A stretch of 64,000 nucleotides of DNA from Candidatus Poribacteria bacterium (GTDB lineage: Bacteria; Poribacteria; WGA-4E; WGA-3G), in contig JAJEIE010000027.1 of NCBI GenBank assembly GCA_022827625.1, positions 362,827 through 426,826 of the forward strand, written 5' to 3'. The notes under the pieces were generated by a model. It saw only the letters and a program-made list of their open reading frames with translations. It made no database searches and was not told where the DNA came from. The position numbers were made by a program, and so were the translations under genes. Position 1 is the first letter of the stretch. Each line of letters starts with the position of its first letter. Positions 1 through 34,573 of this stretch are shown here, piece after piece.

Positions 1-372
1 AATAAAACGATTTCATTAGACGACCTGCCACGTCAAGTTGAAGACTTACTGCGAACAACTTGGGAAGGGAATGAGAGCCTTGTGCTTGAACAAAACGGAA
101 AGCCCGTTGCCGCGATCGTTCCAATGGATGAGTATCGCAAATGGCATCCAGATGAGGACGAAAACACCTTCGCTTATGAACTTCCAGGGCACCTCCTTGA
201 AGCGTATCATGGTTTATTGGACAAGAAATTTTCTACTGGACTGACGAAGAAGGAAGAAATTACGTTGTCGAAATTAGATCAGCAGTTGGATGGTGCAGAA
301 GCGACGCAGCCACTTATACAATTTATGCAAAGACGCACTAAGGCACGAGACGAAAATTTGAGGAAGAAGTAA
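1..372 (+). CDS. Phd/YefM-type antitoxin-like protein, 5' end missing
   Basis: The frame is open from base 1 to a TAA at 370-372, so the true start lies outside the window; a GTG at 82 is internal. The first visible residues (ISLDDLPRQVEDLL, then a stretch on the pattern NGKPVAAIVPMDEY) follow the pattern of Phd/YefM antitoxins, where a short N-terminal strand-helix segment binds DNA and the C-terminal part wraps a toxin. No toxin-like gene follows: a SIS-domain gene starts 9 bases downstream. It could therefore be an orphan antitoxin or a small regulator of the same fold. The C-terminal tail is charged and longer than in minimal Phd proteins. Family call from pattern only. Confidence 0.55.
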   Translation, partial: NKTISLDDLPRQVEDLLRTTWEGNESLVLEQNGKPVAAIVPMDEYRKWHPDEDENTFAYELPGHLLEAYHGLLDKKFSTGLTKKEEITLSKLDQQLDGAEATQPLIQFMQRRTKARDENLRKK

Positions 373-29230: not shown

Positions 29231-30337
29231 TTATTTCGGTAGGAGACCGCACCTACCGAGTGTGCTTCGGACAGCCGCTATACCATCTTCCATGTACTCC
29301 CGGTTTGGTGGAAGGTAGTCTTGTAGGCTTTCCCAGTCGTATTCGTTCTGTGTCGGATCGTCATTTTTGAAAAGAATCTTGGTGCCGTAATCTCGGATTT
29401 CATTGATTGCCCACTCATAGATATAGAAACCGAAAATATCTGCGTGTAAGGAGATATTATCCTGTCTCTCGGTAAGATACCGCTCCAAGACCACCTCAAA
29501 CCGTTCACCCGTGAAAGAGACCAAATCTTTTTCAGGTGGACCTAAGCAGACCCCATCCCAATCAATCAAATGAAGTCGTTCTTCGGTATCGAGAATAAGA
29601 TTGCCTGGGGTCGGATCACCGTGTGTGATAACGAACGGCGTTTGTAATGCGGCTGCCGAACGTCCAAGACTATCATATCTCTCAGTTGCCTGTAGAATCT
29701 CTGATTTATGCTGCGTGAGTGTTTCGAGGAGCTGCTTCTGATATTGATTCTGCGGCGGTATCTTCTTCGCGGGTGCTTCAAGGACTGTGTGAAGTTCATG
29801 TCGCAAAGGTAAGTTATATTCTGCTATTGTAAGACTATCTTGAAGTATCTTGCTTTCAAGTCGCCATCCTCGAAGTGAAGGTGAGTCATACTCTGCGACT
29901 GTAAGACTATCGGAGGCACTTGTATCGAGACATTCATGAATCGTCGCGAGTAATCCTCCGGTTTCTGATAGTTGTGTATCTGTAAAATCTTTTCCGACTT
30001 TCCACAGATCCCAGCGACTTTTACCTTCAATGAACGGAAATAACGCGACACGGAAATCTTGCCACGGAACGCTCAGGGCACCCTCCTGCGTTTCCAAAGG
30101 TGCGACAACACCCGATATATTGCACCTATGCTTTAAGAAGAACGCTACCTGCAAGCAGCTATTTGGCACGGAAGTTGAGGCTTTTGCGAAGTATTTTTCG
30201 CCTGTCTCGGATACAGTAATATAGCCGTAACTATCTTCGCCTTCTGGGAAAAAAGTTATAGATTGCAAAGGTAGATCATAGGCAGTACTGAGGTTTTGCA
30301 ATAATTCTATTTGATCAAAGGCGTTGTCGACTTTCAT
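29231..30337 (-). CDS. aminoglycoside phosphotransferase (APH)-fold kinase
   Basis: A 368-residue protein-kinase-like phosphotransferase. The catalytic loop ITHGDPTPGNLIL has the HGD-x4-N motif near residues 247-254, followed by the metal motif LIDWDG; the N-lobe Lys is probably in KYFAKAS. The APH group phosphorylates small molecules such as choline, homoserine, sugars or antibiotics. Between the lobes a 34-base segment is duplicated 72 bases apart, giving DSLTVAEY and DSLTIAEY. The ATG at 30337 overlaps the endonuclease gene by 23 bases, so translation is coupled; an earlier start at 30364 overlaps by 50. Confidence 0.8.
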   Translation of the reverse strand: MKVDNAFDQIELLQNLSTAYDLPLQSITFFPEGEDSYGYITVSETGEKYFAKASTSVPNSCLQVAFFLKHRCNISGVVAPLETQEGALSVPWQDFRVALFPFIEGKSRWDLWKVGKDFTDTQLSETGGLLATIHECLDTSASDSLTVAEYDSPSLRGWRLESKILQDSLTIAEYNLPLRHELHTVLEAPAKKIPPQNQYQKQLLETLTQHKSEILQATERYDSLGRSAAALQTPFVITHGDPTPGNLILDTEERLHLIDWDGVCLGPPEKDLVSFTGERFEVVLERYLTERQDNISLHADIFGFYIYEWAINEIRDYGTKILFKNDDPTQNEYDWESLQDYLPPNREYMEDGIAAVRSTLGRCGLLPK

Positions 30338-31106
30338 ATCTAAATTTCTCGAAATAACTATCAATTTCCGATCTTAACTCAATGCCCGCCATTTCAAAGG
30401 CATCCAACAAATCTGTGTAAGTGCCTTCACCACCGATAAAATTCCATAATTCTTCTGCTATCAAAATATCGTGCTGTAAATCTAACATCCCTTTCAGCGT
30501 CCATCGCTCATAAGGTTTTGGTTCATAAGGATTGTAAGGGATGCCAATCATTGTATTTACAGATGCCTCTGGGTCTCGCGCTAATTCGGCGGCAGTCCAC
30601 TCCAAAAGTGTTCGTTTAAATTCCTTGAAATTACCTTTGTTAGGTTTTACAGTTTTTAGGTCGAATAAAAACAGCTCACCTTCATAGTTTTCCAACCAAA
30701 TGTCCACCCGCGTCAGTTTTACTTTGTCTAAAGTTCCAGTTCGACAGACTTCCCTAATTTCCTGGATTTCCAAGGGTTTATTTGGATCTCTATCTGCGGT
30801 CCCTAACCCATCAATAATTGTTTGGATCCTTTGATGCGCTTGGGCACTGATTTCGTCAGCGGGTTTTACTTGAGTTTTTGCGACTCTAAACCTTCCACTC
30901 GCCAACGCAATTGCTACCGGTTCATAAAATGAGGTACCAAATTTTGTATTCAAAGAGTGGATAAAAGAATATAAAGCCATCCTATCTTTACCAAGTAGAC
31001 GATGGTGAAATGGCATGTAACTTGTTTCAGGATTATACGACCGAAACTTTTCTCGCATACATTCCTTAATTTTTTCTTTAATCATCGTTTGCCGTTGTAA
31101 AGACAT
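30315..31106 (-). CDS. TdeIII-type type II restriction endonuclease
   Basis: A 263-residue endonuclease. The PD-(D/E)XK core is seen in VDIWLENYEGELFLFDLK (Asp, then D-L-K) near residues 133-150, followed by TVKPNKGNFKEFKRTLLEW, which I recognise from TdeIII/MjaII-type enzymes. Those are reported to recognise GGNCC; that this protein does so is inferred. It begins 3 bases after the methyltransferase stop, with GGAG 8 bases before the ATG, a usual arrangement for restriction-modification pairs. The stretch looks more A/T-rich than its neighbours, consistent with transfer. Confidence 0.8.
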   Translation of the reverse strand: MSLQRQTMIKEKIKECMREKFRSYNPETSYMPFHHRLLGKDRMALYSFIHSLNTKFGTSFYEPVAIALASGRFRVAKTQVKPADEISAQAHQRIQTIIDGLGTADRDPNKPLEIQEIREVCRTGTLDKVKLTRVDIWLENYEGELFLFDLKTVKPNKGNFKEFKRTLLEWTAAELARDPEASVNTMIGIPYNPYEPKPYERWTLKGMLDLQHDILIAEELWNFIGGEGTYTDLLDAFEMAGIELRSEIDSYFEKFRYESRQRL

Positions 31107-31109
31107 CCG

Positions 31110-32684
31110 TCACTCCGTTTTTTGTTTCAAGTGGAATATTGTCTCAGAATACGCTGCCTCTCGATTCTTTTCCGTGCGATTCAAGACAGGTCGTTTGTGT
31201 TGATTGACAATGGACATACCAGCGATTTCAGCGATAGTCGGATACATATTAAATTTATCGTTTGCTACAATAAAAACATCGTAATCATCAGCCAAAAATC
31301 GCTTACAATTTTTGAAAACCTCTGCTACGCCGTGAATATATGATTCTCTTGCTTCTCGCCCTTTTCCTCTAAATAGGGGGCCAATTTCTAATGCATCTAA
31401 ACGTTTGAATCCAAAGAGATCATAAGCGTAGGCGTGCTGTTCGTGGTAATTGATAAGTCCAACATACGGTGGACTTGTAAAGATACCCTTAATCCGTTGT
31501 TTTTGGGCAGTCTCTGTAAAATTAGAATCTACCTGTTTCAATATCTTGAAGATGTCAATTGTCCGCGAATCACCCGTTATGCAATGTTGGAAAGTATTTG
31601 TTTTTAATTTACTGAATGCAATCCATCTTTGCACACTATCCTTACAGTACCGGTCCCACCATCCTAAAATAGAAAAGAGAGGTTTGCAGACTTTTCCATG
31701 CTTGCGGCAATAATAGGTTGTTGTTACTGGTTTTCGCAACGTGCCTAAATCTGCGTGCGTTGTGGCTCTACAAGAACGGATCGTGCGGCTTAAGATGAGC
31801 ATCAACGCTTTTTGTGTTGATAGGTTTTCCACTTTGCGAATTTCGTTGTGAACAAAATCAATTTCTGCTCTGATTCCCGGAAGGTACCACTGTTTCATAA
31901 AGCGAGCAGAGTCGGTTGGCATCTGTGTATCGATTTGGTACTCGGCAACAAGTTTGTGATACGTTTCCAAAAAAATGGCTTCCTTCTCAGCCCCATATTG
32001 TTTCTGATTGATTTCACCTGATCTGACTCGGCGTTTGAAAGACATTGGAAAGTATTGATTATTGAAATCCGTAAGCAATGCTGCGAGTTTAGATTCAAAT
32101 TCAACTATTCCAGATGTAGCAACGACATTTTTGAGAGCTGCCGTGATTTTTTTGCTTTCCTCATACAAATGAGTCAAATTATATGTCGCCACCTTGCCAT
32201 TGCTAATGAAAGCATTAAAAGCCGAAACGTCAATGCCAATTGCATGCATACCCAATTCGTTTGCTTGGACTAAGGTCGTCCCGCTCCCACAAAATGGGTC
32301 GAGCACAATATCGCCTGGTTGAAAATACACATCTTGCTTAAAGTTGTCAGTGTGTGAATCTAAAAAATATTCAACTAATTGGGGAATAAATTTGCCTTTG
32401 TACGGATGCAGTCTATGGACGTGTTTCGTTGTTTCTGCCTCTTTAACCTTTTCAAAAGACAACGTCCAGTTCAAGTCACCGCCGAGTTCATCTTTCCACC
32501 GTGTTTCTCTATGGTTCAGACTGTAATAATCCACAAGACTTTGCTTATGAACCAATGTTGCTCCCTTATCTACAACCGACTCAATCCTTCCATACTGGAT
32601 TAAATAGGTGATATTTGCGGGTGTAACGTTTTTATTTAGATGTTCTGAGGCCCATTGGCTTGCTTGTTTAAGAGTCAAGAGCAT
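31110..32684 (-). CDS. DNA methyltransferase, N4-cytosine type, with N-terminal HTH
   Basis: A 524-residue SAM-dependent DNA methyltransferase that would protect the sites cut by the following endonuclease. The N-terminal 60 residues look like an excisionase/MerR-type HTH (LTLKQASQWASEH). Motif X appears as HPYKGKFIPQLVEYFL, motif I as DPFCGSGTTLVQANELG near residue 134, and motif IV as FTSPPYVGLINY near residue 409. SPPY indicates transfer to an exocyclic amine, usually N4 of cytosine. Motif I precedes IV with a long segment between, so the target-recognition part probably lies there (alpha-like order). Confidence 0.85.
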   Translation of the reverse strand: MLLTLKQASQWASEHLNKNVTPANITYLIQYGRIESVVDKGATLVHKQSLVDYYSLNHRETRWKDELGGDLNWTLSFEKVKEAETTKHVHRLHPYKGKFIPQLVEYFLDSHTDNFKQDVYFQPGDIVLDPFCGSGTTLVQANELGMHAIGIDVSAFNAFISNGKVATYNLTHLYEESKKITAALKNVVATSGIVEFESKLAALLTDFNNQYFPMSFKRRVRSGEINQKQYGAEKEAIFLETYHKLVAEYQIDTQMPTDSARFMKQWYLPGIRAEIDFVHNEIRKVENLSTQKALMLILSRTIRSCRATTHADLGTLRKPVTTTYYCRKHGKVCKPLFSILGWWDRYCKDSVQRWIAFSKLKTNTFQHCITGDSRTIDIFKILKQVDSNFTETAQKQRIKGIFTSPPYVGLINYHEQHAYAYDLFGFKRLDALEIGPLFRGKGREARESYIHGVAEVFKNCKRFLADDYDVFIVANDKFNMYPTIAEIAGMSIVNQHKRPVLNRTEKNREAAYSETIFHLKQKTE

Positions 32685-32779: not shown

Positions 32780-33220
32780 TCAATCTGCTGAAGATGAATC
32801 TACTTTCTGGAGAACCACTTTGGTCCCGCTCTTTAGTTCTAAAGTCTTGGCGATGTTTCCCATGTTAATCGCAATTTTAAACCGTTGCGTCGATGTCGAG
32901 AACCGTCCCAAATAGTCCCCTTCAGGTACATCTCCGTAATTTTCGACGTATTTTATCTCAATTTTCTGTCCTGTCGCAAACGCTGCTTCAAGCGTATCGC
33001 CGAGTTTCCAGCTGCGTTCGGTAAATGGGGCAATGACCAGATCGGTCACGGCGTTGCCGTGATCGTCTATTTCGGTAATTGTGCCAGTGAGTGATGTCGA
33101 TTGAGAGGACTCCGGCATGCTTGTTTTTTGACTGCATCCAATGAGGAATGCTGTTGTCATAAGAGTGACTGTGAGTGTTAATTTCCAATAATACAAACAG
33201 GATTGATAATAGAATTTCAC
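32780..33220 (-). CDS. lipoprotein with a SAM-hydroxide-adenosyltransferase C-terminal-like domain
   Basis: A 146-residue lipoprotein: signal LTVTLMTTAFLIGC with lipobox Cys near residue 29. The mature part (GTITEIDDHGNAVTDL near 45-60, then VENYGDVPEGDYLGRF and FKIAINMGNIAKTLELKSGTKVVL) resembles the C-terminal barrel of the fluorinase/SAM hydroxide adenosyltransferase family (DUF62), without the catalytic N-terminal domain. This domain alone is not an enzyme. GGAGG precedes a GTG start by 8 bases. A strong promoter is directly upstream. Confidence 0.72.
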   Translation of the reverse strand: MKFYYQSCLYYWKLTLTVTLMTTAFLIGCSQKTSMPESSQSTSLTGTITEIDDHGNAVTDLVIAPFTERSWKLGDTLEAAFATGQKIEIKYVENYGDVPEGDYLGRFSTSTQRFKIAINMGNIAKTLELKSGTKVVLQKVDSSSAD

Positions 33221-33253
33221 TGCGATACCTCCATAAATTTTTAAACTGTCTTA

Positions 33254-33282
33254 AGTATAGGGGAATGACAAGCAAATGTCAA
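33254..33282 (-). promoter_or_regulatory. sigma70-type promoter for the lipoprotein gene
   Basis: On the minus strand TTGACA (33282-33277), 17 bases, TATACT (33259-33254): a near-consensus promoter. Confidence 0.8.
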
Positions 33283-33336: not shown

Positions 33337-33457
33337 CTTTTCAGCATGATTTTTCTTATAGGATGTGCGATAATCAATTATTGATACAGCTACAGTCAGA
33401 GAGTTGTGTATACAGCAAAGTCACCTCAATTTAAAAATTGAAGCATTGGAGATGAAT

Positions 33458-34573
33458 ATGTCGAAAAAAATAAGTGTTTATGATAGATTTTCAAGACCTG
33501 TCCATTTTGTCGGAATCGTGGTTCTGTTATTTGGAATCCTATTGAGTTTTTCGGGTTGTGAAAAAATCAAAACGCCGATGATACCAGATACCACTGTCCC
33601 GGATACTGAGCCGCTTACAGTGATGACCTATAACGTTTACGTCGGGGGCAGTGCGGAGGCAATTTTATCCGTAGAGAATGTGTTGCAGGTTCCGACAGAA
33701 GTCGCTAACATGTACAACGATGTCATGGTATCCGATTTTCCGGGACGTGCTGCAGCAATCGCCAAATCTATAAAAGCATATCAGCCACATCTCATCGGTT
33801 TACAAGAGATTTCGCTGATTCGCCAACAAAGTCCCGGCGACCGGATTGCGGGCGGAACGGTTCCTGCTGAAGAGGTGGTCATAGATTTCCTCCAAGTCTT
33901 GATGGGCGCGCTTCAGGCAGAAGGCTTAAACTATCAAGTTGCTGCTCAGGTCGAAAACATTGATGTTGAAATGCCTATGTTTACTGATGCTGGAATTGTT
34001 GATGTCCGGTTAACCGATTTTGATGTCATACTCTCTCGCAGTGATGTCATAGTATCACGTCCGGTGAGTGCGAACTACACAAACGCGCTTGCGATTGAAA
34101 TGCTTGGGCTTGAAGTCCAAAGAGGATACACTGCTGTGGATGCCATTGTCTCTGGTACCACTTATCGCGTTGTCAATACACACTTAGAAGCATTTGTGGA
34201 AGAAGCTCGAGTTGCACAAACACAGGAGCTTGTGGATGTTCTTAGCGGGGAGACTTTGCCGATTATTCTATTAGGCGATTTCAACACGCCCGCCCCCGAT
34301 GGGACGGCTTACCAAATTTTACTATCGGCGGGGTATGTTGACGTTTGGCAGATGGATTCTGAAGGAACCGGTAATACGTGTTGTCAGGCTCCTAACATTC
34401 TAAATGAGGTCAGTGAACACTTTAAACGGATCGACCAGATTTTCGTCCGCAATTTGGAACTTCCTGCTTCTGTTATGACGCGCACCATCGGGGATGAACC
34501 GTCAAATCGGTTAGCCTCTGGACTGTGGCCCTCCGACCATGCAGGCGTCGTTGCAAATCTCGTATTTGAATAA
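33458..34573 (+). CDS. endonuclease/exonuclease/phosphatase-family lipoprotein
   Basis: A 371-residue exported lipoprotein (signal ending LLSFSGC) with an EEP hydrolase domain of the DNase I/sphingomyelinase/inositol-phosphatase type. Landmarks are TVMTYNVYVGG, LIGLQEISL with the metal Glu, VVNTHLEAF, IILLGDFNTP and the closing SDHAGVVANL with the catalytic His. Nuclease and phosphodiesterase members cannot be separated by eye. GGAG is 6 bases before the ATG at 33458; the ATG at 33452 abuts that site. The C-terminal Cys pair (NTCCQAP) may form a disulfide. Confidence 0.82.
   Translation: MSKKISVYDRFSRPVHFVGIVVLLFGILLSFSGCEKIKTPMIPDTTVPDTEPLTVMTYNVYVGGSAEAILSVENVLQVPTEVANMYNDVMVSDFPGRAAAIAKSIKAYQPHLIGLQEISLIRQQSPGDRIAGGTVPAEEVVIDFLQVLMGALQAEGLNYQVAAQVENIDVEMPMFTDAGIVDVRLTDFDVILSRSDVIVSRPVSANYTNALAIEMLGLEVQRGYTAVDAIVSGTTYRVVNTHLEAFVEEARVAQTQELVDVLSGETLPIILLGDFNTPAPDGTAYQILLSAGYVDVWQMDSEGTGNTCCQAPNILNEVSEHFKRIDQIFVRNLELPASVMTRTIGDEPSNRLASGLWPSDHAGVVANLVFE

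Follow-up and report, generated by a model that had tools for sequence, protein, structure and literature searches.

The closest described relatives of the protein considered here are the DUF62 proteins or (R)-SAM hydrolases, i.e., SAM hydroxide adenosyltransferases composed of the domains PF01887 (SAM_HAT_N) and PF20257 (SAM_HAT_C), with 2zbv from T. maritima, PH0463, and MJ1651 as examples. These enzymes hydrolyse SAM, StDUF62 showing a preference for the (R,S) epimer (PMC12120602, PMC10491745), and carry an Asp-Arg-His triad corresponding to D68-R75-H127, while the halide site of the fluorinases is located in the N-domain and involves T80 and S158 (PMC4859513). In the fluorinase, the methionine amino group is bound by Asp210-His211 and the methionine carboxylate by Ser269/Arg270, whereas Asn215 contacts the adenine amino group and Arg277/Ala279 the adenine (PMC1282579); N215, S269, R270, and A279 are among the residues listed as critical (PMC3999930). 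A stand-alone or lipid-anchored version of the C-terminal barrel is not reported in the titles and abstract openings of the openly accessible literature, of which part was covered, nor does the portion examined contain a count of PF20257 proteins.

Such a stand-alone barrel is encoded in the window, by which we mean the whole stretch of 64,000 nucleotides of poribacterial DNA analysed. The open reading frame covers positions 32780-33220 on the minus strand, starts with GTG and codes for 146 amino acids; its features are as follows.

32780..33220, minus strand: stand-alone SAM_HAT_C lipoprotein gene, 146 aa, GTG start (from the ORF, the PF20257 match and homologues)
33137..33220, minus strand: predicted signal peptide part, 28 aa, ending with L-I-G before Cys29 (from the sequence and the lipobox survey)
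33092..33136, minus strand: mature Cys and variable linker, mature residues 1-15 (from linker dN/dS and pLDDT)
32801..33091, minus strand: SAM_HAT_C barrel, mature residues about 16-112 (from PF20257, model pLDDT, Z and dN/dS)
33254..33282, minus strand: sigma-70-type promoter TTGACA-17-TATACT (11 of 12 matches)
33228..33232, minus strand: Shine-Dalgarno sequence GGAGG, 7 nt 5' of the GTG (from the sequence)

Within the window's family, 32 of 33 loci have a similarly placed promoter with 10 or 11 of 12 matches ahead of the gene, and none was found at a similar place in five more distant loci, a set that does not include L135 and L136. The lipobox claimed in the original prediction is present as L-I-G-C, with Cys29 as its cysteine, at the end of a hydrophobic signal segment that opens the precursor. 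In the survey of similar lipoproteins proposed there, 37 homologous loci were screened with a permissive pattern, and 33 of them contain a motif resembling a lipobox with its Cys; the remaining four comprise three with Gly-Cys behind a hydrophobic stretch and one with Arg-Cys. Lipidation of the barrel and its location in the envelope are predicted features. In one homologue (L125, VYCT01000267.1), lipidation should be impaired by an Arg directly in front of the lipobox Cys (F-I-R-C).

Assignment of the mature part to the C-terminal barrel of the DUF62/fluorinase family, which had been proposed from the sequence, is borne out by the sequence profile, by a search of PDB sequences, and by structure. 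Pfam SAM_HAT_C matches residues 46-135 with 47.4 bits against a curated cut-off of 25.5 (E 2.4e-12) and is covered from position 1 to 83 of its 84 positions, whereas PF01887 (SAM_HAT_N) finds no match in the ORF, in line with the proposed absence of the catalytic N-terminal domain. A PapD_C match stayed below its cut-off and was discarded. A profile of 14 lipoproteins retrieved DUF62 sequences from the PDB (E 5.3e-7), and all six matches at E 0.0012 or better belong to the DUF62/fluorinase family. The AlphaFold2 model of the mature protein, calculated with a 40-row alignment, has a mean pLDDT of 89.5 and a pTM of 0.81, and pLDDT is at least 90 for 98 of its 118 residues; ten-residue blocks of the barrel reach 96-98 over most of its length, and mature residues 1-12 fall below 50. 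In a Foldseek search with this model, the best 40 chains were all DUF62, chlorinase or fluorinase (lowest E 9.2e-9), and the first unrelated chain followed at E 0.039. In the comparison of the predicted model by VIA-align, 21 DUF62/fluorinase entries reached Z 11.7-17.6, led by 2zbv_C (Z 17.6, rmsd 1.5 over 96 residues), and the next entry among the matches listed had Z 6.6, so the structure-based check suggested with the original prediction points to the DUF62 C-terminal domain. Among these listed matches, which need not comprise every fold family, no other family exceeded Z 7, and the better OB-fold or SH3-like match that would have spoken against the assignment was not among them. Because sequence profile, model, and conservation agree, the identification goes beyond chance. 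One PDB entry encountered in these comparisons, 7ccg, is inconsistent in itself, being listed as RNA polymerase subunit delta in the sequence table and as chlorinase ClA1 in the structure title.

The lipoprotein thus shares with the DUF62 hydrolases the C-terminal barrel fold, the motifs I-D-x-x-G-N and A-I-N-x-G and the Asp/Asn/Asn pocket residues, but differs from them by lacking the N-domain and the triad, by its lipobox signal peptide, by Arg78 and Lys87, and by one extra residue in the loop after strand 75-79. With fluorinase and chlorinase (FlA, 1rqp; SalL, 2q6i) the modelled barrel has its fold in common at Z of about 15-17; unlike them, it has no N-domain and hence no halide site, and the equivalents of Arg270 and Arg277 are not retained. 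As judged from its sequence, the protein cannot perform a DUF62-type reaction alone, because the Rossmann-like N-domain and the whole Asp-Arg-His triad are absent.

The host lineage is Candidatus Poribacteria, which are best known from marine sponges. Among 77 pattern matches in genome contigs, 39 are related loci, all from poribacterial metagenome-assembled genomes, although the search patterns were narrow and distant relatives may be missed; the nearest relative is 95% identical to the window's lipoprotein over the mature part. Counted by hand, 47 of the 84 poribacterial genomes contain a stand-alone copy: 34 of the 38 from the window's genus, both of those from g18, 2 of 18 in g19, 7 of 9 in family f4, and 2 of 3 in f3, but none in the remaining groups of the phylum. 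This count comprises the genomes with short frames plus G030, where the gene lies inside a longer open frame, and leaves out a contig-edge piece (G053:C60) because it has some of what comes before the barrel in a full-length protein. The gene occurs in three families of the order, and the four genomes of the window's genus without it are 78-89% complete. Two genomes (G006 with L007 and L092; G024 with L016 and L087) contain two copies each on different contigs, where mixed strains are possible. No stand-alone barrel lipoprotein was found in the viral contigs searched, and plasmids gave a single weak match, which lies inside a full-length DUF62; the records NZ_CP134663.1 and NZ_AP026896.1, labelled as plasmids of 4.9 Mb, resemble whole chromosomes. 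Among 28 copies from the window's genus, the median dN/dS of the barrel is 0.075 (316 of 378 pairs usable, those with dS outside 0.1-1.5 being set aside), and that of the linker (mature residues 2-15) is 0.36 (281 of 378 pairs). Strong purifying selection acts on the gene, which is no relic.

Full-length DUF62 proteins occur in the same organisms. Exactly one PF01887 match was found in 37 of the 38 genomes of the window's genus and none in the other, the respective frames of 271-318 aa being of full-length size. In the window's own genome, the sole match is a full-length protein encoded elsewhere with no apparent signal peptide, and none was seen in those full-length frames of the genus that were inspected, which are some of them. 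Apart from this one full-length DUF62 per genome, the search of the window's genus yielded no N-domain partner for the lipoprotein. The six genomes of genus g5, and also G052, encode a second full-length DUF62 (frame of 307-329 aa), and the four of these that were inspected (L042, L044, L045, L047) have signal-like N-termini. Similar exported proteins are present in E. coli and Aeromonas (L142, L143); of the 5426 complete genomes of E. coli, 2374 carry the gene. The E. coli example L142 (NZ_CP134663.1, 4864265-4871062) combines a signal-like N-terminus with an intact triad and is annotated as a member of the SAM hydrolase/halogenase family.

A tree of 92 barrels based on 105 columns, in which many forks are weak and some branches long, unites the 50 lipoprotein barrels in one clade (91/97), which is adjoined by the two barrels of a single protein, L039 (92/97). 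A branch with support of 100/99 separates the lipoprotein, L039, exported, E. coli/Aeromonas, and Listeria barrels from all 32 cytosolic poribacterial ones; the branching order of the exported lineages is not fixed by this tree. By its sequence, the lipoprotein groups with the exported DUF62 proteins, not with the cytosolic enzyme of the same cell, and it also shares with them an N-terminal signal-like segment and the motif G-D-V-P-x-G, whereas the exported proteins are full-length with an intact triad and the lipoprotein consists of the barrel only. Its origin from the exported branch, which the original prediction did not contain, is well supported. In L039 (G049:C165, frame of 415 aa), a signal-like start is combined with a degenerate N-domain and two C-terminal barrels in tandem; its PF01887 score is 84.4 bits compared to 174.7 for an intact exported DUF62, and in its triad Asp is replaced by Glu, Arg is lost and His is kept. 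Since L039 already has the Arg78 and Lys87 of the lipoprotein, the N-domain was apparently damaged first and lost later. Damage of the N-domain, duplication of the barrel in one line and a free barrel can apparently be read from living genomes. The genome of L039 also contains a decayed barrel piece related to it (L048, G049:C640).

The lipoprotein barrels were compared with 40 others, consisting of 32 cytosolic, 5 exported (of which L043 is a contig-edge piece), 2 gammaproteobacterial, and 1 Listeria barrel (residues in mature numbering). Asp24, Asn28, and Asn91, which correspond to Asp210, Asn215, and Asn278 of the fluorinase according to the alignment and the range in which the model superimposes on 1rqp (12..111 to 198..298), are identical in all 50 lipoprotein and all 40 comparison barrels; Tyr67 is likewise present in all 50, with 37 Tyr and 3 Phe in the comparison set. 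Other positions have changed. Arg78 in place of Leu, Ile or Tyr, and Lys87 in place of Glu (37 of 40), occur in every lipoprotein barrel and in both barrels of L039, but in none of the comparison set. Moreover, Asn32 is replaced by Asp in 44 of 50 and Ser81 by Thr in 42 of 50 lipoprotein barrels, the latter together with the loop that is longer by one residue, while the equivalents of Ala279 (Met92) and Arg270 are variable. Each L039 barrel has lost one of the constant residues, with Asp24 changed to Glu in one and Asn28 to His in the other. From the strands of the model, we take residues 78 and 87 to lie opposite each other across the hairpin 75-79/86-90. The charge switch at these positions is a single event, because it falls on one branch, and it seems to have preceded the loss of the N-domain, since both L039 barrels have Arg78 and Lys87.

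That the protein is a non-catalytic envelope barrel derived in this way appears highly probable to us, while a role in binding adenine-containing ligands is a more tentative proposal. Overall, we favor with some reserve the reading of a non-catalytic, lipid-anchored DUF62 barrel whose pocket is preserved on the adenine side and whose ligands may be adenine nucleosides or nucleotides; we would give this reading nearly an even chance. The adenine side would be retained in the equivalents of Asp210, Asn215, and Asn278. Alterations by Thr81, the longer loop, Arg78, and Lys87 would concern the methionine-carboxylate side and the adjoining face, and Arg78 and Lys87 possibly take a new, perhaps anionic, part. 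An adenine nucleoside or nucleotide might then be bound in the envelope for capture or sensing. The combination of a kept adenine side with a changed methionine side makes such binding the most likely role among those considered, and of the two functions suggested in the original prediction, the retained pocket residues favor, at the level of sequence, nucleoside binding over a scaffold. The fluorinase pocket sits between two domains, so a barrel on its own may show weak binding or none. In a more specific version, which we regard as rather unlikely, the protein would be an envelope receptor for adenine nucleotides, with Asn28, Tyr67, and Asn91 gripping the adenine and Arg78 and Lys87 the phosphate at the former place of the methionine and N-domain.

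A structural or protein-binding barrel is the strongest competitor and a real possibility, albeit one we consider to have only about one chance in three. Fold and oligomer surface would be kept, the pocket residues would hold the fold, and the basic face around Arg78 and Lys87 would bind an envelope protein, a lipid or a cell-wall polymer. Since enzymes of this family form trimers, the barrel possesses surfaces for contact with proteins; StDUF62 is described as a trimer (PMC12120602) and the fluorinase as a trimer or hexamer (PMC1282579). The largest lipoprotein-specific changes also adjoin the former methionine/N-domain face and not the adenine side, and folding could be the reason why Asp24, Asn28, and Asn91 are conserved. 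What weighs against this explanation is that exactly these three residues have stayed unchanged in 50 barrels despite the loss of the N-domain partner.

We consider it improbable that the lipoprotein is a regulatory or half-site subunit of an exported full-length DUF62, associating with it to either contribute or obstruct an active site. The two proteins indeed coexist in five of six g5 genomes, the sixth (G047) having only the full-length DUF62, but a second PF01887 protein was found in none of the 38 genomes of the window's genus, 34 of which encode the lipoprotein, and the cytosolic enzyme sits in a different compartment. Very little speaks for an exported DUF62 gene in decay: the N-domain has indeed disappeared, and the degenerate relative L039 exists together with the decayed piece L048 in its genome, but the low dN/dS of the barrel in the window's genus, the promoter conserved in the window's family, and the presence of the gene in three families argue strongly to the contrary. 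Finally, another small beta barrel (an OB-fold, SH3-like or double-psi barrel lipoprotein) merely resembling the DUF62 domain is very improbable, as double-psi and other barrels do appear in VIA-align, but at Z 5-7, far below the DUF62/fluorinase entries among the matches listed, and both the gap in Foldseek E-values and the sequence profiles agree with this.

The unexpected aspects are the evolutionary path and the retained half-pocket. An enzyme seems to have been dismantled by evolution with its steps still visible, from an exported enzyme via a damaged two-barrel form to a free barrel, and the barrel of fluorinase and DUF62, which has been described until now as one half of an active site, would have gained an independent existence, so that recognition of adenine by a lone half becomes testable. 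If the less likely reading of an envelope receptor for adenine nucleotides is true, a sponge symbiont could capture or sense extracellular ATP, AMP or breakdown products of nucleic acids. Attention is also drawn to the exported DUF62 proteins, e.g., of E. coli, whose extracytosolic substrate is unexplained in the literature examined.

The neighbors of the lipoprotein gene do not form a consistent pathway. In f4, it lies among genes for a BPD_transp_2 permease and for ureidoglycolate-lyase-like and Ldh_2-like proteins, and in one contig of this group (G041:C58, L145/L138) an XDH-like set was recognized upstream by eye, with a creatininase-family gene nearby. This neighborhood might represent a purine or ureide degradation cluster; a purine-pathway context for the lipoprotein was rejected, as none of the NCBIfam scores came near its cut-off and the f4 context differs from that of the window's genus. 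In the window, genes for a DNA methylase and a TdeIII-type restriction endonuclease (30315-32684) follow directly downstream, as in many but not all members of the genus, and an operon with them was dropped because several loci do not contain them. On the other side, a divergent gene of the endonuclease/exonuclease/phosphatase family (33404-34573) has a lipoprotein-like start of its own (L-S-F-S-G-C), and a homologue of it is present in 26 of the 40 loci compared.
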